Assembly: GCF_900104745.1 (NCBI RefSeq) | Contig: NZ_LT629732.1 | Span: 2,467,981-2,531,980, forward strand | DNA: 64,000 bases | Origin: Actinopolymorpha singaporensis | Lineage (GTDB): Bacteria > Actinomycetota > Actinomycetes > Propionibacteriales > Actinopolymorphaceae | Direction: 5' to 3' | Shown here: piece by piece, positions 1 to 21,741 of the stretch | How positions within the stretch are numbered: position 1 is the first letter of the stretch | How the letters are laid out: the number at the start of each line of letters is the position of its first letter | The notes under the pieces: model-generated | What the model was told of the DNA's origin: nothing | What the model saw: only the letters and a program-made list of their open reading frames with translations | Database searches by the model: none | Made by a program: the position numbers and the translations under genes

Positions 1-2588
1 ACGAGTCTCCGGTGCGGTGGTCGGTCGACTACCTGGCCGAGACCCTGGAAGGGGCCGGCGTCGTCGTGCGGCGGCCGTCGGGCCGGCGAAGGGACCGGCA
101 ACCGGACTCGCAGCAGGACTCCCAGCCGGACTCGCAGCCGGACTCGGCCGACGTGCTGATCCGGGTGGCAGGTGGGAACGCCGGTCCCGCGGAGTCCTTC
201 GAGCTGAGCCGCCCGGACGGGGCCGACGGACAGGTGAGCGTGGCGGGAGCCGACGCGCGCGGTCTGGCGTACGGCGTGCTGGAGCTGGCCGACCGTGTGC
301 GCTGTGCCGAGGACCCCGTTGCCGAGCTCCGCAGTACGGAGCCGGAGAGCAAGCAGCCGGCGACGCCGGTACGAAGCATCCTGCGGACGTTCACCAGCGA
401 CGTGGAGGACAAGCCGTGGTTCTACGACCGGGACTTCTGGTCGGAGTACCTCACCGAGCTCGCTGTCAACCGGATCAACCGCTTCCAGCTGGCGTTCGGG
501 ATGCAGTACAACTACGGGCATCACCCCGCGACGGAGAACTACTTCTGCTTCCCGTACCCCTTCCTGCTCGACGTTCCCGGCTTCGACGTCGGCGTAGGAA
601 ACGTGCCGGCCGAGGAACGCGAGGCCAATCTCGCCACGCTGAGGTACATCAGCGACGAGGCGAAACGGAGAGGGATCCATTTCCAGTTGGGGCTGTGGAA
701 CCACGCCGACGACCAGGGCGAGGGCTCGGCACCGCTGTATCCGGTCAGCGGCATCACCCCGGACAACCATGCGGCGTACTGCGCCGCCGCTCTCGACCTC
801 CTGCTTCGGGAGTGCCCGTCGATCGACGGGCTGACGATGCGGGTGCACTACGAGGGCGGCATCCCGGAGCCTGACCACGAGGCGTTCTGGCAGACCGTGA
901 TGGGGGCGGTCGCCGCTGTCGGACGCCCGATCGAGATCGACATGCACGCCAAGGGCGTGGACGAGGCGCTGCTCGACATCGCCCGCGGGACCGGATGCCG
1001 GGTGGTGGTCTCGGCGAAGTACTGGGCAGAGCACCAGGGCCTGCCGTACCACCAGACGACGATCCGCGAACGCGAACGTGCCACGAAGGAACCCGGAACC
1101 GGGCTGATGGCGATCACCGCGCACCAACGCCGGTTCACCCGTTACGGCTATGGCGACTTCCTGCGCGAAGGCAGCGACGTCGGGCTGCTGTTCCGCATCT
1201 GGCCCGGCACGCAGAAGGTGTTGCTCTGGGCAGATCCGGTCCTGGCCGCCGGGTACGGCCGGCTGGGCACGATCGGCGGTGCGCTGGGGATCGAGTGGTG
1301 CGAGCCCCTGAGTTTCAAGGGCCGCAAGAACACCGGGGAGCCGAACGGCAGAGATCCCTACGCCGATCCGGCGTTGCGGCTGGACGGGCAGGACTGGCGC
1401 AAGTACCGCTACTCCTACCGGCTGTGGGGGCGGCTGCTCTACGACCCGGACGCCGATCCTGAGCAGTGGCGGCGGTTCCTGCGGGCGGAGTTCGGTGACG
1501 CGGCCGAGGCCGTCGAGAACGCGTTGGCGCCGGCGAGCCGGGTGCTTCCGTTGGTCACCGTCGTGCACGGCATCGGCGCGTCGAACAACGGCTACTGGCC
1601 GGAGATGTACCTCAACATGCCGATCGCCGGCGGTCCCAACGCCGACCACTATCGCGGTGACACGGCGAGTCCGCCGACCTTCGGCGGGGTGAGCTCGTTC
1701 GACCCCAGCATGTTCTACCGGGTGGACGAGTACGCCGAGGACGTCGTGGCCGGCCGCCGCGACGGGCGGTACTCGCCGATGGAGGTGGCCGACTGGCTGG
1801 ACCGGCTCGCGGAGGAGGCCGAGCAGAATCTCGCGGTGGCGCGGGACAAGTCGGCACGGGCGGACGATCCGGAGTTCCGTCGGGTGGCGATCGACGTCGC
1901 GGCGCAGGCAGGGCTGGGCCGGTTCTTCGCCGGCAAGTTCCGGGCCGGTGTGGCGTACGCCCTGCACGAGCGCACCGGCGACGCCAGCCACCTGGGCGAA
2001 GCGGTGGCCGCGTACCGGGCTGCACGAGACGCCTGGGCCGGCGTGGCGGAGGTGACCACCGGCGCCTACCGGCCCGACCTCACCTTCGGTGACCTGCGCT
2101 CCGAGCACGGTCACTGGGCCGACCGGCTACCGGCGATAGAGGAGGACCTGGCCGACCTCGAACGGCGGTTCGGGCAGGCGAGGACGGCGGAAGCCGCCGC
2201 GGAGCAGGGGCCTCCGCTACTGCCCGCGGTCGAACGGATCCGGTTCGACCACACCCCGCCGCCGCCGTTCGCGCGCGGCGAGGAAGTGCGGATCGAGCTC
2301 ACTCCGAGTGCAGCGTTCGACGGAACGGTGGTCTGCCACTACCGCCATCTCAACCAGGGTGAGGATTTCCGGACCGTCGACATGAGCGTCGACACCAATG
2401 CCGACAGGGGAGGGGACGGCATCGGCACCTACGGCACGAGTGTCGGCGGCAACTACACCGATTCCGACCATGCCCTCGTCTACTACTTCACCGTTCACCA
2501 CCCCGCCGGGGACGCGTGGATCCTTCCCGGGCTCGACCAGACGCTGGCCAACCAGCCGTACCACGTGATCCGGCAGCGACAGGAGTGA
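1..2588 (+). CDS. Glycoside-hydrolase-like protein (alpha-glucuronidase/hexosaminidase-type fold), 5' end probably outside window
   Basis: The frame is open to base 1 and the first in-window start is a GTG at 12, so the true start may lie upstream; from 12 it encodes 858 residues. The N-terminal ~110 residues look like the small alpha/beta domain found before the catalytic barrel in GH67 and GH20 enzymes (the stretch around GADARGLAYGVLELADRVR). The middle, about residues 120-520, reads like a TIM barrel rich in aromatic and acidic residues (IHFQLGLWNH, LTMRVHYEGG, EIDMHAKG, LFRIWPGTQK). A helical region and a C-terminal beta-rich tail follow. No signal peptide is visible. The next gene follows after 5 nt, so the two are probably cotranscribed. 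The substrate is unknown; the glycosidase assignment rests on overall architecture, not on catalytic residues I could pin down. Confidence 0.6.
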   Translation, partial: ESPVRWSVDYLAETLEGAGVVVRRPSGRRRDRQPDSQQDSQPDSQPDSADVLIRVAGGNAGPAESFELSRPDGADGQVSVAGADARGLAYGVLELADRVRCAEDPVAELRSTEPESKQPATPVRSILRTFTSDVEDKPWFYDRDFWSEYLTELAVNRINRFQLAFGMQYNYGHHPATENYFCFPYPFLLDVPGFDVGVGNVPAEEREANLATLRYISDEAKRRGIHFQLGLWNHADDQGEGSAPLYPVSGITPDNHAAYCAAALDLLLRECPSIDGLTMRVHYEGGIPEPDHEAFWQTVMGAVAAVGRPIEIDMHAKGVDEALLDIARGTGCRVVVSAKYWAEHQGLPYHQTTIRERERATKEPGTGLMAITAHQRRFTRYGYGDFLREGSDVGLLFRIWPGTQKVLLWADPVLAAGYGRLGTIGGALGIEWCEPLSFKGRKNTGEPNGRDPYADPALRLDGQDWRKYRYSYRLWGRLLYDPDADPEQWRRFLRAEFGDAAEAVENALAPASRVLPLVTVVHGIGASNNGYWPEMYLNMPIAGGPNADHYRGDTASPPTFGGVSSFDPSMFYRVDEYAEDVVAGRRDGRYSPMEVADWLDRLAEEAEQNLAVARDKSARADDPEFRRVAIDVAAQAGLGRFFAGKFRAGVAYALHERTGDASHLGEAVAAYRAARDAWAGVAEVTTGAYRPDLTFGDLRSEHGHWADRLPAIEEDLADLERRFGQARTAEAAAEQGPPLLPAVERIRFDHTPPPPFARGEEVRIELTPSAAFDGTVVCHYRHLNQGEDFRTVDMSVDTNADRGGDGIGTYGTSVGGNYTDSDHALVYYFTVHHPAGDAWILPGLDQTLANQPYHVIRQRQE

Positions 2589-10726: not shown

Positions 10727-11200
10727 TCAGAGGTGAAGGACCACCAGCCGACGGTCGACCTCCACGCGGTAGGTCTCGGCCTCGTAGGGTCCCCGCTGGT
10801 AGCCGGCAGCGTCCAGGTCCGCCTCGCAGGCGGTGGCGCCTCCCTCAGTCTCGACGGAGGTCCCGGTCGTGGTCTCGACCGAGGTCTCGTACGTCGCGAC
10901 CCTGGTCTTCGCCGGATCGAACCACGACCGTCCGGACCTGATGTCGAACTCCCACTGGTGCCACGGACATCGCACGATCTCGCCGCGCCGTACGTAGTCG
11001 TACTCTCCCGGGGTCCTCGAGCTCACCAGCCCGGACACGACGCCCTCGCACAGCGGGCCGCCCTCGTGGGGACACTGGTTGCGGATCGCGAAGAAGTCTC
11101 CGCCCAGGTTGAAGACGCCGATCGACCGGCCCTCGACCGACACGATCTTCCGCTGCCCGGGCGGTATGTCGTCCACCTGCGCGACCACGTGCTTCGGCAT
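10727..11200 (-). CDS. Rieske [2Fe-2S] ferredoxin-like protein
   Basis: The 157-residue protein carries both halves of the Rieske cluster site, C43-P-H45 (NQCPHEGGPL) and C78-P-W-H81 (CPWHQWEFD). The wide spacing holds a short insert (residues 52-70). There is no signal peptide or catalytic oxygenase domain, so it is a soluble electron-transfer protein or a small oxygenase component. It is last in an operon with two amidohydrolases on the same strand (27 nt after the nearer one), suggesting a ring-modifying or decarboxylating pathway. The partner reductase is not in the window. Confidence 0.9.
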   Translation of the reverse strand: MPKHVVAQVDDIPPGQRKIVSVEGRSIGVFNLGGDFFAIRNQCPHEGGPLCEGVVSGLVSSRTPGEYDYVRRGEIVRCPWHQWEFDIRSGRSWFDPAKTRVATYETSVETTTGTSVETEGGATACEADLDAAGYQRGPYEAETYRVEVDRRLVVLHL

Positions 11201-11227: not shown

Positions 11228-12325
11228 TCACCCGAGCCCGTACAGGTCCTTGGCGTTCCGGGAGAAGATCCGTTGCCGGTCCTCCTCCGGTAGCCGAACC
11301 CGGAACGCCCGGTCGGGATCGTCGTAGTCCCAGTGCGGATAGTCGGTGGAGAACATCACTCGCTCGGAGCCACCGAGGTGTTCCAGCACCGTTCGGATGT
11401 CGCGGGGATCGTGCGGTTCCTCGATCGGTTGGGTGGTCACCCAGACGTGCTCGCGGATGTACTCCGACGGTTTGCGCGTCAGCTGCGGCACCTCGTCCCT
11501 GAGCCTGCGCCAGTGCTTGTCGAGTCGCCACATCAGCGGCGGAAGCCAGGCGAAGCCACCCTCGATGAGGACGACTCGCAGGCCGGGGTAACGCTCGAAG
11601 ACCCCTTCGCAGACGAGGCTCACCACATGTGCCTGGAACGCCTGTGCCATGTCGGTGTGGTCCTCGATGTAGTACGACGGCCAGCCCGAGGCGGTGACCG
11701 GCACGCCGCGGGCTCCGCCGCCGAAGTGAACGCCTACCGGAAGGCCGTGGCGCTCGGCGGCCTCGTAGATCGGCCAGTACTTGCGCCGACCGAGCGGCTC
11801 GGCCGTACGTGCGATCAGCAGTACCTGGACGAAGCCCGGCTGGTCGGCGTAGCGGTCGATCTGCTCGACCGCGAGCTCGGCATCCTCGTACGGCACCGCG
11901 ATGCCGGCCCGCAGACGCGGCTCCTTTTCCAGCCATTCGGCGATCTGCCACTCGTTGGTGGCCCGGCACAGCGCCGAGGCGTAGTCCGCGTTGAGCTGGG
12001 TGCCGGCGGGTCCCAGACAGTTCAGGACGCCGTACTCGATGCCTTCCGGATCAAGGTGCTGCCTGCGCATGAACTCCAGATCGCCACCCGGTGGCCTCCC
12101 CGACGGTGGCCAGGAGTCGTGGCGGGCAGCAGCAGGACTTCCCTTGGGGTAGAACGATCCTGGATGGGTCCGCGATCCGAAGAGCTCGCCGTGTCTGCGC
12201 CAGCGAGCGGACAGGTAGGGGTCGAGCGCCCCCGGCCAGACCGCATTGTGAATGTCACAGTCGACCACCATGCCGCGGTTCCTTGTGGCGGTCGCGACCA
12301 TGACGTGTCCTCTCGTCGTCGCCAT
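11228..12325 (-). CDS. Amidohydrolase-2 (ACMSD-like) metal-dependent hydrolase/decarboxylase with intact metal site
   Basis: The 365-residue TIM-barrel protein belongs to the amidohydrolase-2 family, which includes ACMSD and related decarboxylases. Likely ligands are visible: D24-x-H26 at strand 1 (VDCDIH), H200 (VGVHFGG), H223 and H233 (EDHTDMAQAFQAH), and D328 at strand 8 (STDYPHW). A segment of the type YYIEDH...AFQAH and IEGGFAWLP is typical of this actinobacterial subfamily. It lies downstream of a close paralogue (12352-13407) lacking these residues and upstream of a Rieske gene. Substrate unknown; the nearby importer is a plausible source. Confidence 0.88.
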   Translation of the reverse strand: MATTRGHVMVATATRNRGMVVDCDIHNAVWPGALDPYLSARWRRHGELFGSRTHPGSFYPKGSPAAARHDSWPPSGRPPGGDLEFMRRQHLDPEGIEYGVLNCLGPAGTQLNADYASALCRATNEWQIAEWLEKEPRLRAGIAVPYEDAELAVEQIDRYADQPGFVQVLLIARTAEPLGRRKYWPIYEAAERHGLPVGVHFGGGARGVPVTASGWPSYYIEDHTDMAQAFQAHVVSLVCEGVFERYPGLRVVLIEGGFAWLPPLMWRLDKHWRRLRDEVPQLTRKPSEYIREHVWVTTQPIEEPHDPRDIRTVLEHLGGSERVMFSTDYPHWDYDDPDRAFRVRLPEEDRQRIFSRNAKDLYGLG

Positions 12326-12351: not shown

Positions 12352-13407
12352 TCAGAACGTGTAGGTGTCGTGGGCGTTGCCCGCAAGGATCCTGTGCTCG
12401 ACCTCGCGCGGCAGGCCGGACGGGAGTACGCCCTCGTCGGAGTCGAACTGCCAGTGCGGATAGTTGGTGGCGAACATCAACAGCTCGTCCGAGCCGAGCT
12501 GTTCGATCGTCTCGACCAGGTGCTTGGGGTCGTCCGGCTCGTCGAGCGGTTGGGTCGTGAGCCGTACGTGGTCACGAATGATCTGCGAGGGCGGCCGATC
12601 CACCCACGGAACCTCACGACGTAGCCCCTTCCAGTTCTTGTCGAACCGCCACATCAGGCCGGGCAGCCAGGTGAAGCCGCCTTCGGTGAGCACCACCCGG
12701 AGACGGGGGTACTTCGTGAAGACACCCTCGCTCACCAGGCTGACCACCTGCGCCTGGAACGCCTGCGCGTAGGAGACGTAGTCCTCGAGGTAGTACGACG
12801 GCCAGCCCACCGGAGTCGTGGGGTTGCCACTCGTACCGCCGGCGAAGATGCCGACCGCCAGGCGGTTCCGCTCGGCGGCCTCATAGATCGGCCAGTACCG
12901 CCGTTTCCCGAGCGGCGTCTCGGCGCGCACCGGGAGCAGGACCTGGACGAATCCCGGATGCCGGCCGAGCCGGTCGATCTCCTCGGCAGCCGAGCCGGGA
13001 CTCTGCGGCGGTACGACGATCGAGCCGCGGAGCCGGGTGTCATGGGCGAGCCACTCGGTCGCCAACCAGTCATTGACAGCCCTGGCCATCGCCAGCGCCC
13101 AGTCCTCGTTGTGGAGTGACGAGATCTCCAAACCACAGTTCAGTACGGCGTACCTGGCCTGCCAGCGATCGAGAAGGCGGTCGCGGAGCAGGTGGAGGTC
13201 TACCGACGGGCCGGGCAGCTTCGGGTACCGCTCCGCGCCGATCGTCCCTACACCGCCTTCCGCCATGTAATCCTGCCACCGTGGCTGGAGGAACGGCCTG
13301 AGAACGTCCACGGAGGAGACGGCCACGCGTACGTCACAGTCCACCAGCTCGGCCTCCCCCCATCGCGGGAGCCGGCCCGGAGTCACGGCGCCGGACGTAG
13401 CCATCAT
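12352..13407 (-). CDS. Amidohydrolase-2 paralogue with all metal ligands replaced (probable pseudoenzyme)
   Basis: The protein (351 residues from the ATG at 13407, with GAGG 8 nt upstream) aligns along its length with the product of 11228-12325, sharing YWPIYEAAER, GWPSYY, AQAFQA, EGVF and NYPHW. Every metal or active-site position of the partner is changed: H26 to R27 (DCDVR), H200 to F188, H223 to Y210, H233 to Q220 and D328 to N315. The frame is intact and the fold residues are kept, so this looks like selection for a non-catalytic role, such as a regulatory or structural subunit, rather than decay. It is first in the operon, behind a perfect dyad at 13443-13460. A longer start at 13497 would run through that dyad and is disfavoured. 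Confidence 0.82.
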   Translation of the reverse strand: MMATSGAVTPGRLPRWGEAELVDCDVRVAVSSVDVLRPFLQPRWQDYMAEGGVGTIGAERYPKLPGPSVDLHLLRDRLLDRWQARYAVLNCGLEISSLHNEDWALAMARAVNDWLATEWLAHDTRLRGSIVVPPQSPGSAAEEIDRLGRHPGFVQVLLPVRAETPLGKRRYWPIYEAAERNRLAVGIFAGGTSGNPTTPVGWPSYYLEDYVSYAQAFQAQVVSLVSEGVFTKYPRLRVVLTEGGFTWLPGLMWRFDKNWKGLRREVPWVDRPPSQIIRDHVRLTTQPLDEPDDPKHLVETIEQLGSDELLMFATNYPHWQFDSDEGVLPSGLPREVEHRILAGNAHDTYTF

Positions 13408-13557: not shown

Positions 13558-14457
13558 TCAGCGCAGGGCGGCGACGGCGATCTTCGCGGCCCGTGCAATG
13601 GCGGCGTCCGCGGCGGGGAGGATCAGTCTGTTTCGCGGAGACCGGGTGAACACCGCCACGGCGTACGCCTCGCCGTTCGGGTACTCCACCACTCCGACCT
13701 CGTGCCGAAGTGCGATGAAGGTTCCCGTCTTGCCGGCGACCACCACGTCGTCGAACGGGAACGCCGCCGCGAGCCGCTGGGTCCAGATCTGCTGGGCGAG
13801 CACCGTCCGGATGTACGCGCACTGACCCGGCGACGCCGCCCGGTCTGCCCAGATCGCCGCGAGCAGGCTGGTCATGTCCTGGCAGGTGCCGACGGTGCTG
13901 CCGGGATCGGCCGGATCGAGGACGGGGATCTGGTCCATGGTGCCCGAGTCCCGCAGCCACGCGATCGCCTCGGCCAGGCTGGAGCAGCCGCTCTCCTGAA
14001 GGACGGCATCGAACAGGTCCCGGGTACCTCCGGTGATCCGGGTCTGGTGCAGGCCGAGATCGTCGAGCAGCGAACGAACCCGGTGGAGTCCCACGGCGTC
14101 GAGGAGTTCGTCCGCGGCGGCGTTGTCGCTGACGGCGATCATCGACCGGGCAAGGTCACGCCAGGAGACGGTGACGGCATCGGCCATCGCCGCGAACCCG
14201 GTGCTTCCCGGCGTTCGCCGCGAGGGTTCGAGGATGACGGTCGCCTCCGGCTCGATCTCGCCGGCGTCGACCATGCGGGCGTACGCGACGAGCAGTGGCA
14301 GCTTGAACACCGAGGCCAACGCGACCTGCTCGCGGGAATGGTGGCCGATCTCCCGGTCCTCGTCGTGCAGGTCGACGGCGTGCAGCCAGCCCCAGACCCC
14401 CGCGTCCTCGAAACACTGCCGGATCGCCAGGCTCTCCGCGTTGGTCGTGGGGGTCAC
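13558..14457 (-). CDS. Cytoplasmic serine-beta-lactamase-like protein (BlaB-like), coupled to LysR
   Basis: The 299-residue product has the three motifs of serine penicillin-recognising enzymes: S49-V-F-K52, S110-D-N112 and K243-T-G245. It starts at a GTG whose TGA-overlap with the LysR gene (GTGA, 14454-14457) forces this start, and there is no signal peptide. No ExxLN omega-loop, which carries the deacylating Glu of true class A enzymes, is recognisable between SDN and KTG. Regulator-then-cytoplasmic-enzyme order recalls blaA-blaB of Streptomyces cacaoi, where BlaB is an internal, regulatory penicillin-enzyme-like protein. I therefore infer a sensing role rather than drug hydrolysis. Annotation as class A beta-lactamase remains the alternative. 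Confidence 0.75.
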   Translation of the reverse strand: MTPTTNAESLAIRQCFEDAGVWGWLHAVDLHDEDREIGHHSREQVALASVFKLPLLVAYARMVDAGEIEPEATVILEPSRRTPGSTGFAAMADAVTVSWRDLARSMIAVSDNAAADELLDAVGLHRVRSLLDDLGLHQTRITGGTRDLFDAVLQESGCSSLAEAIAWLRDSGTMDQIPVLDPADPGSTVGTCQDMTSLLAAIWADRAASPGQCAYIRTVLAQQIWTQRLAAAFPFDDVVVAGKTGTFIALRHEVGVVEYPNGEAYAVAVFTRSPRNRLILPAADAAIARAAKIAVAALR

Positions 14458-15386
14458 GGCGCGGGCACCTCCGAGACCGGCCGCGGCGCCGGACCGAGGC
14501 CGCCCGGTCGCCGGGGGGTGCCGAGCACGTCCTGGAGTATGTCGGGGAGCCGCCGTGCCGGGCCGGTCAGCGTCCCGGCCCACGCCACCCGGAGGGAGAG
14601 AGCGAGCGGATCGCCGTCCAGCCGTACGATCCGGACCCCCTCGCCCGACCCGGGTGGGTCGGTCGTGAACGCCACCACCCCACCCGCGGCGATGAGCCCG
14701 CGCGCGACCCGCTCGTCCGACATCTCCCGCACGACGCGTGGCAGGAACCCGTGCCGCTCGCACATCGCCAGGAGATCGTCGTGCGCGGCGGGCGCCTGGT
14801 CGCGGGCGGGGAGCAGCAGTTCGTACCCACCCAGGTCGCGGAGCCGCGGGGAGTCGCGGACGGATCCGTCGTCGGGTACGAGACAACGCAACGGCACCTC
14901 CAGCGTCGGTCCGAGGGTGAGGCCGCGCGAGACGATCGGCTCGTGGAGGACGCCGAGGTCGGCGCGCCCGCCGAGTAGGTCCCGGATCAGGTCTCGGGTG
15001 GTCTGCTCGCTCACCTCGATGTCGGCCTCCGGGACGGCCCGCCTGCACGCGGCGACCACCTGCGCGTAGTGGCCGCGGCCCAGGCCCGAGGCGACGCGGA
15101 TTCGGAGGACTTCCCTCTCCGGGTCGCGCTGCCGCCTCGCCAGGAGATGCAGCTGCTGGACCTCGTCGAGCACTCGCTGGGCCGTGGGCAACAGCGCGCG
15201 GCCTGCCTCGGTGAGCCGTACGCCCTGACTGTCCCGATCGAAGAGTCGCGTACCGAGTTCGTCCTCGAGCCGTCGCAGACCCTGCGACAGCGGAGGCTGG
15301 CGCATCCGAAGCCGCTGGGCGGCCCGGCCGAAGTGTCCCTCGGCGGCGATCGCCGTGAAGTACTCCAGATGCCGAACCATGTCCAT
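14454..15386 (-). CDS. LysR-family regulator (BlaA-like)
   Basis: The 310-residue protein starts at ATG 15386 (MDMVRHLEYFTAIAAEGHFG; an ATG two codons later is possible). Residues 1-60 form the LysR winged HTH (GRAAQRLRMRQPPLSQGLRRLEDE-type), residues ~90-300 the effector domain. It is divergent from a MecA-like PBP gene and overlaps the downstream penicillin-enzyme-like gene by 4 bp, so both are made together. The short intergenic region has a TATCC-N6-GGATA dyad and a second ATATCC element. By family habit it should bind here and regulate itself and the PBP. Confidence 0.88.
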   Translation of the reverse strand: MDMVRHLEYFTAIAAEGHFGRAAQRLRMRQPPLSQGLRRLEDELGTRLFDRDSQGVRLTEAGRALLPTAQRVLDEVQQLHLLARRQRDPEREVLRIRVASGLGRGHYAQVVAACRRAVPEADIEVSEQTTRDLIRDLLGGRADLGVLHEPIVSRGLTLGPTLEVPLRCLVPDDGSVRDSPRLRDLGGYELLLPARDQAPAAHDDLLAMCERHGFLPRVVREMSDERVARGLIAAGGVVAFTTDPPGSGEGVRIVRLDGDPLALSLRVAWAGTLTGPARRLPDILQDVLGTPRRPGGLGPAPRPVSEVPAP

Positions 15387-15397
15387 GAGCAGGGATG

Positions 15398-15443
15398 ATA
15401 TCCAGGCCGGGATAGTCGTCCGCACCATATCCATATTGGCGCC
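15398..15443. promoter_or_regulatory. Candidate LysR control region: dyad plus ATATCC/ATTGGCG element
   Basis: The inverted repeat TATCC-aggccg-GGATA occupies 15399-15414. A second ATATCC begins the element ATATCCATATTGGCGCC at 15427-15443, 29 bp from the first. The second element recurs upstream of the other PBP gene (58009-58025) with 14 of 17 positions identical and the same 55-nt distance to the equivalent GTG. The region lies between the LysR and PBP genes, as expected for LysR binding sites. Confidence 0.6.
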
Positions 15444-15481
15444 GGATGGAGGCGATCCTGTTTGATCGCCGGGTGGAACTT

Positions 15482-17146
15482 GTGACGGAGTGGGAGCTGG
15501 AGCAGCGTCGCAGGCAGCGGCGGTTCCGGGCCATCGTGGGGGGCGTCGCCGTGACACTGCTGGTCGTCGGGGGAGCGGGCGGCGCCCTGATGCTCTTCGG
15601 CGACCCCGGCCGGGCCGCGGAGCGGGAATCGGCGGTGCGCGCCCAACAGCGGATGGACGCGTTCGCAACGGCCTGGGAGAAAGGCAGATGGGCGGCGGCG
15701 GGGAAGCTCACCGACAGCCCCACGAGTGCGGCGTCGCTTCTCGCGTCCGTACATCGCAACCTCGCGCCGACTGCGTTCACGATCGAGGTCGGCCGGCCGA
15801 GCGCGAGCGAGCGGGACGACAGCACGTCCGTGACCTTTCCTTTCACCGTACGGCTGAAGGTGCCGCGGGTCGGCCCGTTCACGTACGGGTCGAGGGCGCG
15901 AGTCGTGGAGACCTCTGCCGGCCGGGAGGTCGTCCACTTCGAGTCGTCGACGGTCCATCCGGAACTCGAGGCAGGCCAGACGCTCGCCGTCGCGAAGATG
16001 TCGACGCGCGGATCGGTGCTCGATCGCAACGGTGACGTTCTGAGCACGCCCTCACTCGTGGGGCGGGTGGACGAGAACGGCGTAGGGGTTTCCGGCCTGC
16101 AGAAGCGCTACGACGAACAACTCGGCGGCTCCGGACAGGCGTACGCGATCGCGATCACCGATCGCCAGACCGGCCATGCGGTGAAGCCCCTCCAAAGAAC
16201 CGGGACCACGCGGCACGGCGAGGACGTGCGCACCACGATCGACCCCGGCGTGCAGCGCGCGGCGGCTAAGGCGCTCGAAGGAGTCGCCACGCCGGCGGCG
16301 ATCGTCGCGACGCAACCCTCCAGCGGCGACATCCTTGCGGTAGCTAACCGGCCCGGCGGGTACAACCGTGCACTGGTCGGGGAGTACCCGCCGGGATCCA
16401 CGTTCAAGGTGGTGACAGCCGCCGCCCTGCTCCGGACCGGCTTGCGCCCCTCGGACCCACTCGACTGCCCGAGATTCGAATGGGTGAACGGCTACCGCTT
16501 CACCAACCAGGACGAGTTCGTGCTGCCCCAGGGGTCGACGTTCAGGGACGCGTTCGCCCACTCCTGCAACACCGCGTTCGTGCAGGCCCGTGACCGAATC
16601 GACGACGCCGCCCTCGCCAGGACCGCGGCCGCGTTCGGCATCGGCGGCACCTGGGACACCGGTGTGGGCACCTACGACGGATCCGTGCCGACGAACAGCG
16701 ACGTCAACGACAAGGCCGCCTCGATGATCGGCCAGGGTCGCATCCTCGCCTCGCCACTGGTGATGGCCTCGGTCGCCGCCACGGTGAAGAACGGGAAGTT
16801 CGTCCAGCCCAGGCTGGTCCCCGAGGCGGTCCGCCACCCCTACCGGGCACCGGAGTCACTCGATCCGGGCGTCGTCGACGACCTTCGGTCGATGATGCGC
16901 TCGGTCGTCACCGAGGGCGCGGGCAAGGCCCTGCGGGGGCTGCCCGGCCGCCCGCACGCCAAGACCGGCACCGCGGAGTACGGCGACGAGACTCCGCCCC
17001 GCACCCACGCCTGGATGATCGGCTACCAGGAGACCAGTGACATCGCGTGGGCGGTTCTTCTCGAGGGCGGTGGGTCCGGAGGCTCCGACGCCGGGCCGAT
17101 CGCGGCAGCCTTCCTGAGGAACCTCAGCGGTAGCGGGCCTTCCTGA
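15482..17146 (+). CDS. MecA-like (class B-type) penicillin-binding protein, copy 1
   Basis: The GTG at 15482 (VTEW) is chosen because the paralogue at 58064 starts with the same residues and the upstream DNA is aligned at the same spacing; an ATG at 15446 would overlap the conserved control element. The 554-residue product has a short cytoplasmic tail, one membrane helix (residues ~16-38), an NTF2-like MecA_N-type domain (~45-140), and a transpeptidase domain with S306-T-F-K, S361-C-N and K494-T-G. It should be a membrane-anchored D,D-transpeptidase. Being divergent from a LysR/BlaB-like pair suggests induction by beta-lactams and a low-affinity resistance role, by analogy with PBP2a. Confidence 0.9.
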   Translation: MTEWELEQRRRQRRFRAIVGGVAVTLLVVGGAGGALMLFGDPGRAAERESAVRAQQRMDAFATAWEKGRWAAAGKLTDSPTSAASLLASVHRNLAPTAFTIEVGRPSASERDDSTSVTFPFTVRLKVPRVGPFTYGSRARVVETSAGREVVHFESSTVHPELEAGQTLAVAKMSTRGSVLDRNGDVLSTPSLVGRVDENGVGVSGLQKRYDEQLGGSGQAYAIAITDRQTGHAVKPLQRTGTTRHGEDVRTTIDPGVQRAAAKALEGVATPAAIVATQPSSGDILAVANRPGGYNRALVGEYPPGSTFKVVTAAALLRTGLRPSDPLDCPRFEWVNGYRFTNQDEFVLPQGSTFRDAFAHSCNTAFVQARDRIDDAALARTAAAFGIGGTWDTGVGTYDGSVPTNSDVNDKAASMIGQGRILASPLVMASVAATVKNGKFVQPRLVPEAVRHPYRAPESLDPGVVDDLRSMMRSVVTEGAGKALRGLPGRPHAKTGTAEYGDETPPRTHAWMIGYQETSDIAWAVLLEGGGSGGSDAGPIAAAFLRNLSGSGPS

Positions 17147-18969: not shown

Positions 18970-20007
18970 ATGACCCACAGCGGACCAGTACCAAGAGCCG
19001 CCTCCCGCCTCCGATCCGTCGCGGCCCCCTCCTCGTCCGTCCCCACGAGGGGAATCACGATCTACGGGTGCGGCCAGGACGAGGCTGCGCTCTTCCGGCA
19101 GTTGGCGCCGCGCTTCGGCGTACTGCCGACCATCACCGAAGCAGGGGTGTCCGAGGTCAACATCGAGTTGGCGGTCGGGAACCGATGCATCAGCATCGGG
19201 CACAGGGCCCAGGTCACCAACCCCGCCCTGCTCGCACTCAGCGAGGCCGGCGTGGAGTACATCTCCACAAGAAGCATCGGATACAACCATCTCGACGTGG
19301 AGTACGCAGCGAGCATCGGCATCACCGTCGAGAACGTCGTCTACTCACCCGACAGTGTGGCCGACTACACGCTCATGCTGATGCTGATGGCGGTTCGTCA
19401 TGCGAAGTCCACCATCCGACGCGTGGACGCTCACGACTACCGGCTGAGTGACGTACGCGGGAAAGAGTTGCGCGACCTGACCGTCGGCGTGGTCGGAACA
19501 GGGCGCATCGGCAGGGCGGTCATGGACAGGCTGAGTGGTTTCGGCTGCCGGGTCCTGGCCCACGACAGTCAGCCTGTGGCCACCGCCGACTACGTGCCTC
19601 TCGAAGACCTCCTACACCTCAGCGACATCGTCACGCTCCACACGCCACTCACTCCGGAGACTCACCACCTTCTTGATGGTGAACGTATCGCGCGGATGAA
19701 ACCCGGTGCGTTCATCGTCAACACCGGACGTGGGTCGCTCGTGCAGACCGAGGCCCTGCTCTCGGCGCTGGAGAAGGGCGAACTCGGCGGCGCGGCGTTG
19801 GACGTCCTCGAGGGAGAGGACGGAATCTTCTACGCCGACTGCCGGGACAAATCCCTCGAAGGCCTGCCGCTGGCACGCCTGCAGCAACTGCCGAACGTGC
19901 TCGTCAGTCCGCACATCGCCTACTACACCGACCACGCCCTGAGCGACACCGTGGAGAACAGCCTCGTCAACTGCGTGAACTTCGAAAGCGGGGAGCATCA
20001 TGGATAG
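18970..20007 (+). CDS. vanH: VanH-type D-lactate dehydrogenase
   Basis: VanH reduces pyruvate to D-lactate for D-Ala-D-Lac peptidoglycan. The 345-residue protein follows enterococcal VanH closely from GITIYGCGQDEA onward (ISTRSIGYNHLD, YSPDSVADYTLMLMLMAVR, GVVGTGRIGRAV, NTGRGSLV, ALDVLEGEDGIFY, HIAYYTDHAL). NAD-binding GxGxxG and the catalytic Arg/Glu/His segments are present. About 25 extra N-terminal residues depend on the ATG at 18970, which has no good ribosome site; an internal start near residue 28 is possible. It overlaps vanA by 8 bp in a vanHAX operon. Confidence 0.95.
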   Translation: MTHSGPVPRAASRLRSVAAPSSSVPTRGITIYGCGQDEAALFRQLAPRFGVLPTITEAGVSEVNIELAVGNRCISIGHRAQVTNPALLALSEAGVEYISTRSIGYNHLDVEYAASIGITVENVVYSPDSVADYTLMLMLMAVRHAKSTIRRVDAHDYRLSDVRGKELRDLTVGVVGTGRIGRAVMDRLSGFGCRVLAHDSQPVATADYVPLEDLLHLSDIVTLHTPLTPETHHLLDGERIARMKPGAFIVNTGRGSLVQTEALLSALEKGELGGAALDVLEGEDGIFYADCRDKSLEGLPLARLQQLPNVLVSPHIAYYTDHALSDTVENSLVNCVNFESGEHHG

Positions 20008-21043
20008 GTTGAAGATCGGAATCATCTTCGGAGGAGCGTCCGAGGAGCATCCCGTCTCGGTCAAGTCCGCGCAGGAGGTCGCGAAGAACCTCGACACTCG
20101 GAAGTACGAGCCGTTCTGGATGGGGATCACGGCGGGCGGCGCCTGGAAGCTCTGTGACGGTCCCGGCGCGGGCTGGGAGGTAGGCGACGACTCGCACGCG
20201 GCGATGCTGTCACCGGACAGAAGTGTGCACGGTCTCCTCGTCCTGAAGCAGGGGCGCTACGAGGCGGTCAGGCTGGATCTCGTACTGCCCGTTCTGCACG
20301 GCAGGCTCGGCGAGGACGGTGCGATGCAGGGTCTGCTGGAACTCTCCGGCATCCCCTACGTCGGCTGCGACGTCCAGAGCTCTGCCCTGTGCATGGACAA
20401 GGCTCTCGCCTACACCGTCGCCGGAAGCGCCGGAATCGCAACGCCGAACTTCTGGACGGTCACCGCGGACGAGAAGCCGGATCCCGAACTGTTCGCCTAC
20501 CCCGTCTTCGTGAAGCCGGCGCGTTCGGGGTCCTCGTTCGGCGTCAGCAAGGTTTCTCGTGCAGAAGAACTGGCCGCTGCGGTGCAGACCGCGAGGCAGT
20601 ACGACTCGAAGGTGCTGATCGAGGAGGCCGTCGCCGGCAGCGAGGTCGGATGTGCCGTCCTGGGAGACGACCTGGAGCTGGTGACAGGCGAGCCGGATCG
20701 AATCGCCCTGTCCCACGGCTTCTTCAGAATCCATCAGGAGAGTCGGCCCGAGAGCGGTTCGGAGAACTCGACCCCGATCGTCCCCGCAGACATTCCGGTC
20801 GAGATGCGCCGAGCCGTTCAGGAGAAGGCCAGGGCCATCTATCGCGCGCTGGGATGCAGAGGTCTGGCGCGGGTGGACATGTTCCTGAAGGACGACGGAA
20901 CGGTGGTCCTCAACGAGGTCAACACGTTCCCTGGCATGACTTCCTACAGCCGCTACCCGAGGATGATGGCGGCCGCCGGTTTGCCGCTTGCCGAGGTGAT
21001 CGACCGGATCGTGTCGTTGGCGCTGCCCGGGAGGATCCGGTGA
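20000..21043 (+). CDS. vanA: VanA-type D-alanine--D-lactate ligase
   Basis: This ATP-grasp ligase (347 residues) makes the D-Ala-D-Lac depsipeptide that glycopeptides bind poorly. It tracks VanA nearly end to end: IGIIFGGASEEHPVSVKSA, ELSGIPYVGCDVQSSALCMDK, VFVKPARSGSSFGVSKV, QYDSKVLIEEAV, GFFRIHQE, CRGLARVDMF, and NEVNTFPGMTSYSRYPRMM. The omega-loop region with HQE is the lactate-type form rather than the Tyr-containing loop of housekeeping Ddl. The start lies inside the vanH end and the stop overlaps vanX (GTGA), so expression is tightly coupled. Whether the variant is nearer VanA or other D-Lac types needs an alignment. Confidence 0.95.
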   Translation: MDRLKIGIIFGGASEEHPVSVKSAQEVAKNLDTRKYEPFWMGITAGGAWKLCDGPGAGWEVGDDSHAAMLSPDRSVHGLLVLKQGRYEAVRLDLVLPVLHGRLGEDGAMQGLLELSGIPYVGCDVQSSALCMDKALAYTVAGSAGIATPNFWTVTADEKPDPELFAYPVFVKPARSGSSFGVSKVSRAEELAAAVQTARQYDSKVLIEEAVAGSEVGCAVLGDDLELVTGEPDRIALSHGFFRIHQESRPESGSENSTPIVPADIPVEMRRAVQEKARAIYRALGCRGLARVDMFLKDDGTVVLNEVNTFPGMTSYSRYPRMMAAAGLPLAEVIDRIVSLALPGRIR

Positions 21044-21741
21044 GGGACGGCTTCGTCTTCGTGGACGAGTGCGTGCCCGGAGTTCGCTGGGATGCCAAGT
21101 ACGCCACCTGGGACAATTTCACCGGCAAACCCGTGGACGGGTACCTTGCGAATCGTATTGTCGGCACGAGGACGCTGTGCGCGGCACTGCAGAAGGCCCA
21201 GGGCATGGCGGCGTCTCTTGGCTTCGGCCTGCTTCTGTGGGACGGCTATCGCCCGCAGCGCGCGGTGGACTGCTTCGTGCGCTGGTCACGACAGGCGGAG
21301 GACGGCCGGACGAAGCTGCGGCACTATCCGAACCTCGAGAGAGCCCAGATGCTCGAGAAGGGCTATGTCGCCGCCAGGTCGGGTCACAGCCGGGGCAGCA
21401 CCGTCGACCTGACGCTCTTTCACCTGGCCACCGGTGAACTCGCTCCGATGGGTGGTGACCACGACCTGATGGATCCGATCTCGCACCTCGGCGCACGAGA
21501 GATCACGCCGATCGAGGCGAAGAACCGGCGGTACCTCTGCTCGATCATGGAGGGCTCCGGGTTCACCCGGTACGACTGCGAGTGGTGGCACTACTCCCTC
21601 AGGGAGGAGCCCTACCCGGACACGTACTTCGACTTCCCCATCTCCTCACCGGTAGCCGCGGGCCTGCAGCTCGTAGAGATCTCTGCCCACCTGGACGACA
21701 AGCAGAGAAGGACCCAGGCATACCGAGAACACTCCACGTGA
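21040..21741 (+). CDS. vanX: VanX-type D-alanyl-D-alanine dipeptidase with C-terminal extension
   Basis: VanX hydrolyses D-Ala-D-Ala so that only D-Ala-D-Lac enters the cell wall. The GTG at 21040 overlaps the vanA stop. In this numbering R71, H116, D123, E181 and H184 fall exactly at the catalytic and zinc positions of enterococcal VanX (GYRPQRAV, SGHSRGSTVDLTL, EWWHYS). The enterococcal enzyme has 202 residues; this one has 233, with about 30 extra at the C-terminus after FDFPI. No vanR/vanS lie in the window, so regulation must come from elsewhere or be absent. Confidence 0.95.
   Translation: MRDGFVFVDECVPGVRWDAKYATWDNFTGKPVDGYLANRIVGTRTLCAALQKAQGMAASLGFGLLLWDGYRPQRAVDCFVRWSRQAEDGRTKLRHYPNLERAQMLEKGYVAARSGHSRGSTVDLTLFHLATGELAPMGGDHDLMDPISHLGAREITPIEAKNRRYLCSIMEGSGFTRYDCEWWHYSLREEPYPDTYFDFPISSPVAAGLQLVEISAHLDDKQRRTQAYREHST

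Follow-up and report, generated by a model that had tools for sequence, protein, structure and literature searches.

The stretch analysed here (the window, 64,000 nucleotides from contig NZ_LT629732.1 of Actinopolymorpha singaporensis, positions 2,467,981 to 2,531,980) carries on its minus strand a set of three genes that encode two related proteins of the PF04909 (Amidohydro_2) family, here called H1 and H2, and a Rieske ferredoxin. This text concerns H1, which has lost metal ligands that H2 retains, and the stretch of H1 we call the arm. The features, in coordinates of the window, are:

13407..12352, minus strand: H1, predicted AibH1-type non-catalytic subunit, 351 amino acids, open frame
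12325..11228, minus strand: H2, predicted AibH2-type catalytic subunit, 365 amino acids
11200..10727, minus strand: Rieske [2Fe-2S] ferredoxin, AibG-like, 157 amino acids, with CPH...CPWH
12604..12648, minus strand: arm of H1, RFDKNWKGLRREVPW (R254-W268), which holds K257, R263 and W268 (coordinates from codon numbers)

The gene order is H1-H2-Rieske on one strand, with intergenic gaps of 26 and 27 bases by open reading frame coordinates, and H1 starts at the ATG at 13407 with GAGGGCGACGAG just before it. PF04909 is matched by H1 at 122.5 bits and by H2 at 185.7 bits (cut-off 26.4), while NCBIfam gave no match for H1 or H2. The product of 10727..11200 is a Rieske protein by Pfam, its CPH...CPWH having been spotted by eye in the translation. 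A preliminary description of this DNA had presented H1 as a paralogue of its neighbour with an intact frame, and this is borne out: H1 is open over its 351 residues and identical to H2 at 172 of 364 positions (47%; BLASTP, E 2e-106).

The gene set resembles that of the 2-aminoisobutyrate monooxygenase AibH1H2GF. AibH1H2 of Rhodococcus wratislaviensis is described as a heterotetramer of determined structure in which AibH1 is termed non-catalytic yet essential, strains without H1, H2, G or F giving no product; the two metals of AibH2 are bound by D25, H27, H211, E265, D337 and H340, and a single Zn of AibH1 by D24, H26, H201, E255 and D328 (PMC7782822). Mn/Fe in AibH2 and Mn in the AibH1 site, there called 'site 0', are given in PMC10401708. 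The window H1 is like AibH1 (PDB 6m1w, 8ful) in being a putatively non-catalytic subunit of the amidohydrolase fold, encoded just ahead of a dinuclear subunit and a Rieske ferredoxin, and in sharing its clade and the residues Y210 and Q220. The window H2 has D24, H26, H200, E255, D328 and H331 together with a second-shell D333, a full set of six ligands and second-shell aspartate that it shares with AibH2 and with the amidohydrolase-related dinuclear oxygenases discovered through a Rieske neighbour (SfbO 8sm6; 8sm7). A neighbouring Rieske gene has been used to discover more oxygenases of this fold (PMC10811679). PtmU3 (6omp) is another dinuclear oxygenase of this fold but a less similar one, its Z score with the H1 model being 33.1.

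Loci were gathered by similarity to the window H1. The trees were built after removal of near-copies and of proteins shorter than 330 residues, which left 112 rows; fragments such as those in loci L077-L079, and likewise the cut H1 of L082, stand outside the counts. In a tree of 74 proteins, built with nine trait columns left out, the 36 H1 rows form one clade (support 100/98) with AibH1 inside, and the 34 H2 rows form one clade (100/99) with AibH2 inside. Because these clades hold AibH1 and AibH2, the window pair and AibH1H2 go back to one and the same duplication; AibH1 and AibH2 are themselves long branches, so that their exact placement calls for caution. AlphaFold2 models of the monomers (mean predicted local distance difference test 83.5 for H1 and 83.0 for H2; modelling references 30/35 H1 and 28/33 H2) contain a barrel in each. 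The best match of the H1 model is AibH1 (8ful_A, Z 41.5, root-mean-square deviation 2.1, 326 aligned), with SfbO 8sm6_A tied at 40.7, and that of the H2 model is a chain of AibH1H2 (8fun_D, Z 44.3, deviation 2.1, 340 aligned), with 8sm7_A tied at 44.1. The closest chains of known structure are those of AibH1H2 and related oxygenases, and not of hydrolases. Judged by sequence, the three genes are of the AibH1-AibH2-AibG type of oxygenase. The term amidohydrolase, used in the preliminary description, fits the system poorly, since residues and neighbours point to a dinuclear oxygenase; the mononuclear site of PF04909 hydrolases and decarboxylases is found in neither sequence, H2 having the dinuclear set and H1 being without three of five ligands. 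A hydrolase or decarboxylase pair was rejected on the dinuclear ligand set and the Rieske gene.

Ligand loss and conservation of the pair

Relative to H2, five replacements in H1 had been listed beforehand and read as loss of metal, and the residue pairs themselves (H26/R27, H200/F188, H223/Y210, H233/Q220 and D328/N315) are correct. The reading as metal loss holds for R27, F188 and N315, which touch site 0, but not for Y210 and Q220, which do not. Y210 is present in 36/36 H1, metal-bound AibH1 included, and Q220 in 36/36 H1 and 17/34 H2; both were rejected as marks of metal loss since both are found in metal-bound AibH1 and AibH2 itself also has Q at the second position. At the five ligand places of AibH1 (D, H, H, E, D) the window H1 has D25, R27, F188, E242 and N315, so that only D25 and E242 are kept. 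The same set of R, F and N at 27, 188 and 315 is common to the window, A. rutila and a further Actinopolymorpha genome (G002). As the set is common to three species in which the ratio of nonsynonymous to synonymous substitution rates (dN/dS) is about 0.2, we consider it more than chance, and on these residues the H1 of the window is likely metal-free.

The loss is graded across H1 proteins. All six dinuclear ligands are kept in 34/34 H2, whereas the 36 H1 retain five site-0 ligands in 15 cases, four in 13, three in 3, two in 4 and one in 1; because sampling started from the window H1, the ligand-poor share (21/36) is not a census. The site-0 state is D, Q, Y, E, D in the H1 of A. alba and of A. 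pittospori, D, Q, Q, E, D in that of Microlunatus and D, R, Q, D, E in that of genome G248. On the tree, loss of both histidines takes a minimum of three changes and a state of three or fewer ligands a minimum of four, counts that alone cannot tell loss from gain. The four-ligand forms, by their residues, may still bind metal. The genome of A. pittospori (G003; contamination listed as 9, yet a single contig) has three H1-H2 pairs (L014, L016 and L023), with site-0 states DQYED, DHQED and QHYEG.

A dead subunit had been put forward as novel for the family. AibH1H2 of R. wratislaviensis, as described in PMC7782822, is already such a pair, so a non-catalytic partner among oxygenases of the PF04909 fold is known and the extent of ligand loss is the new part. 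Among the matches listed from open-licence PubMed Central main text, none reports a metal-free form of AibH1.

The question of whether the altered copy is kept beside an active one and a Rieske gene, raised in the preliminary description, can be answered from the 35 loci whose H1 comes from genomes. A full same-strand H2 is present in 32/35, and a 33rd is seen through overlap, the H2 cut by the locus end in L094 being present in L082; a Rieske gene is found in 30/35. By the NG86 method, dN/dS among the window, A. rutila and G002 is 0.21-0.25 for H1, 0.07-0.09 for H2 and 0.26-0.32 for the Rieske gene, and by YN00 it is 0.05-0.12 for H1 in the same three species; these three are the scope of the estimate, the codon methods having given no values for the A. 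alba and A. pittospori pairs. No internal stop occurs in any of the 18 matches within the genus (the 36 tree rows are open by construction, open frames having been selected). In one locus (L035 of genome G161, 2-1538, minus strand) H2 appears split into frames and H1 is open, which is either an assembly error or a single case of H1 outliving H2.

Searches by taxon, in which the best few candidates per genome were scored, found a match in 1/394 genomes of the class (E <= 1e-85; the window's own only), in 13/396 of the phylum (E <= 1e-75) and in 15/293 of the order (E <= 1e-85).

Distribution of arm and metal residues

Five groups were compared on one alignment of 112 rows: 36 H1, 34 H2, seven degenerate and five intact copies from Chloroflexota/Thermomicrobiota, and 30 remaining relatives, that is, all rows outside the two pair families, not necessarily all of them partnerless. 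The Chloroflexota/Thermomicrobiota proteins are like H1-H2 in that a degenerate copy with the arm stands beside an intact copy without it, the intact partner being visible in 5/7 degenerate loci (L061, L062, L065, L070 and L074). They differ in being the product of a separate duplication and in what was lost, the degenerate copy being without D328 and the second-metal residues and having kept the first-site histidines. The two members together form a clade (100/99). A shared origin of H1 and the degenerate copies was rejected by an approximately unbiased test (p 0.00043 against the union), a value that is weakened because the groups were named after seeing a first tree.

Well-conserved columns in the remaining relatives number 135. 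Thirteen of these are kept in H1 and not in H2, 18 are kept in the degenerate Chloroflexota copies and not in their intact partners, and six are shared by the two sets (hypergeometric P 0.0023 at the first thresholds); crossed controls gave one column each. Four of the six shared columns (F255, K260, R263 and W268) lie within one 14-residue arm. We scored 'metal' by eight active-site residues and 'arm' by R263 and W268 together. On this scoring 29/30 remaining relatives have both and one (L087) has the arm only. H1 has the arm only in 36/36 and H2 the metal only in 34/34, and the same division is seen in the degenerate Chloroflexota copies (arm only, 7/7) and their intact partners (metal only, 5/5). 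An alignment-free arm motif is found in 30/30 remaining relatives, 36/36 H1, 0/34 H2, 7/7 degenerate and 0/5 intact copies. 8sm7 and the other relatives outside the pairs carry R263 and W268 on the one chain, which H2 does not.

The arm can be related to the AibH1H2 interface. K282 of AibH1 is described as hydrogen-bonded to D342 of AibH2, Y287 as a further contact, and the partners D342 and F341 as lying on the metal loop (2025 review, PMC12141560). The equivalent of AibH2 D342 is D333, which is present in 34/34 H2. Since the AibH1 stretch has one K-x4-Y, KLWKSY, we equate K282 with the lysine of 'FDKLWK' and hence with K257 of the window, which is found in 35/36 H1. In the related decarboxylase ACMSD catalysis needs an arginine from the neighbouring subunit, according to the title of PDB entry 4ifk. 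This arginine probably comes from the segment equivalent to the H1 arm.

Two further loci (L041 4307-5891, L042 2936-4534) have one-gene and two-gene forms side by side. The H1-H2-Rieske set of Peribacillus cavernae is immediately preceded by an oxygenase that has a Rieske gene of its own, and in Ammoniphilus resinae such a combination lies about 1.3 kb before the set.

Proposed working and alternatives

We consider it probable that the locus encodes an oxygenase of the AibH1H2G type in which H1 is a non-catalytic, metal-less arm subunit that clamps the metal loop of H2. In such an enzyme the dinuclear site of H2 (Mn/Fe or Fe2) would activate O2 and hydroxylate or dealkylate a small substrate, with electrons passing from a reductase encoded elsewhere through the Rieske protein to H2. 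H1 would pair with H2, and its arm (R254-W268, with K257, R263 and W268) would face the loop of H2 on which D328, H331 and D333 sit, keeping the metal site and the pocket in shape. The ancestral single chain would have held both arm and metal; after duplication the arm would have been lost from H2 and the dinuclear site from H1, and the H1 of Actinopolymorpha would then have lost the mononuclear site that remained, its barrel folding without metal. R27 probably replaces the cation next to D25 and E242, F188 may occupy the room left by the second histidine, and N315 would remove one negative charge. By simple arithmetic, site residues and ion change from -3 and +2 to -2 and +1, an equal sum if R27 points inward. 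Because the metal of H1 is thought to be structural, its loss could be tolerated with a repacked core. The split between arm and metal suggests that H1 acts as a clamp on the metal loop of H2 and can do without a metal of its own.

More tentatively, and as a scheme in which we place rather less confidence, heteromeric oxygenases of the amidohydrolase fold may have arisen at least twice, each time by duplication of a chain that combined the dinuclear site with a trans-acting arm, after which the metal site was retained in one copy alone and the arm in the other alone. The arm subunit would then shed its metal stepwise, the Actinopolymorpha form being a fully metal-free activator in which an arginine stands in for the ion.

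Several observations weigh against these proposals. The P value for the six shared columns ranges over 36 threshold settings from 0.0000 (as printed) to 0.0588. The mirror set, of columns kept in the active and lost in the degenerate copies, has four shared of 21 and 20 (P 0.38, chance level), and the partition is therefore statistically visible on the arm side only; the four mirror columns include the active-site H223 and D333. The arm was picked, and the definitions and the motif were set, after viewing the alignment data. The split is carried mainly by W268 (0/34 H2), R263 alone being still present in 20/34 H2, and K257 is still present in 11/34 H2 and in only 18/30 remaining relatives. The equation of K282 with K257 relies on an inferred numbering shift of 12, and the second contact, AibH1 Y287, aligns with L262 of the window. 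Three of the 35 H1 loci (L035, L094 and L095) have no directly visible full same-strand H2; in L095 a partial relative on the opposite strand is all that is seen. Five of the 35 are without a Rieske gene, and a Rieske motif scan of these five found nothing. Substitutions at site 0 of AibH1 gave insoluble protein in a report that leaves the role of the site open and calls for further experiments (PMC10401708); a metal-free H1 therefore needs compensations, at which we can only guess. The window H1 also retains D25, E242 and H318, which might hold a metal weakly.

This last point leads to the possibility that H1 is an altered AibH1 that still binds metal in a rearranged, weaker site made of D25, E242 and H318, perhaps with C24. 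The three residues are widely kept (D25 in 35/36, E242 in 35/36 and H318 in 33/36 H1), and 13/36 H1 have four ligands. We nevertheless think it unlikely for the window protein, in which R27 places a positive charge at an aligned ligand position and in which both histidines and one aspartate have become R, F and N in three species. It is similarly improbable, in our view, that H1 serves mainly as a docking or relay surface for the Rieske ferredoxin and not as a clamp. Hibi et al. proposed this alternative for AibH1 (PMC7782822), and the frequency of Rieske genes in H1 loci agrees with it. Relatives without an H1 partner also adjoin Rieske genes, however, SfbO is reported to be active alone when given a chemical reductant (PMC10811679), and four of the six columns kept in H1 and lost in H2 fall in the arm, for which homology indicates contact with the metal loop of H2.

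A metal-independent catalysis by H1 itself seems very unlikely. PF04909 enzymes without a cofactor are described (PMC10811679), and E208, like Y210 and Q220, is present in 36/36 H1; the site of AibH1, which shares this Y and Q, is sterically occluded, according to PMC10401708, and F188 stands at a fairly variable position (entropy rank 104 of 330). That H1 is a decaying pseudogene is scarcely credible. Its dN/dS lies above that of H2 in the same three species, but selection is similar to that on the Rieske gene, the 18 matches in the genus are free of stops, the arm is invariant and the gene order is kept. The pseudogene was rejected on purifying selection and conservation across species, and the copy is not one that is unique to this strain and decaying, as the preliminary description had allowed it might be.

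The lineages without these ligands, which keep the subunit, its partner and selection on both, are candidate natural versions of a metal-free AibH1. Since such candidate lineages exist, the role of the H1 metal beyond folding is directly testable. Whether R-x3-PW is kept or broken may separate self-sufficient from partner-dependent oxygenases, and this rule could predict which PF04909 'amidohydrolases' require a partner for activity.

Substrate and gene neighbourhood

The window locus is unlike that of AibH1 in that the neighbours examined differ and show no AibF-like reductase gene; for these reasons the substrate is probably not 2-aminoisobutyrate. The two PF00970 matches of the genome fall outside the window; PF00970 is our inferred proxy for AibF, and an unlinked reductase could serve. 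Near the window H1 there is an Opp-type ATP-binding cassette (ABC) transporter. The neighbours of H1 include an ABC transporter with a binding protein of SBP_bac_8/1 type in A. alba, an arabinofuranosidase in Microlunatus and a GH39 protein in A. rutila. Compared for clues to the substrate, the neighbours of the H1 loci are too variable to name one, and they offer only a hint of a plant-sugar-derived compound.

A further gene lies directly upstream of H1:

13558..14457, minus strand: class A beta-lactamase-like gene (PF13354), upstream of H1 on the same strand

It is the nearest same-strand gene upstream, and 150 bases separate its end at 13558 from the ATG of H1. It is plausible from this arrangement that H1 is the first gene of its operon, as had been suggested. 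Among loci L038-L055 the beta-lactamase-like gene stands beside H1 only in A. rutila, and we therefore place it outside the core unit. The block of which it is part (13558-17146), with a LysR-type regulator and, on the opposite strand, a penicillin-binding-protein-like gene, is retained among the same loci only in A. rutila (L038).

At 12-2588 on the plus strand the window encodes an 858-residue protein without a Pfam match, which matches alpha-D-galacturonidase only weakly (42 bits, where the cut-off is 1300). Relatives of this protein also lie close to H1 in L038 (A. rutila) and L039 (A. alba). On the plus strand at 18970-21741 there is a set resembling glycopeptide resistance genes. It comprises a VanH-like D-lactate dehydrogenase (572 bits, under the model cut-off of 750), a D-Ala-D-Lac ligase (597.8 against the NF000206 cut-off of 550) and a next frame that is VanX-like by eye.
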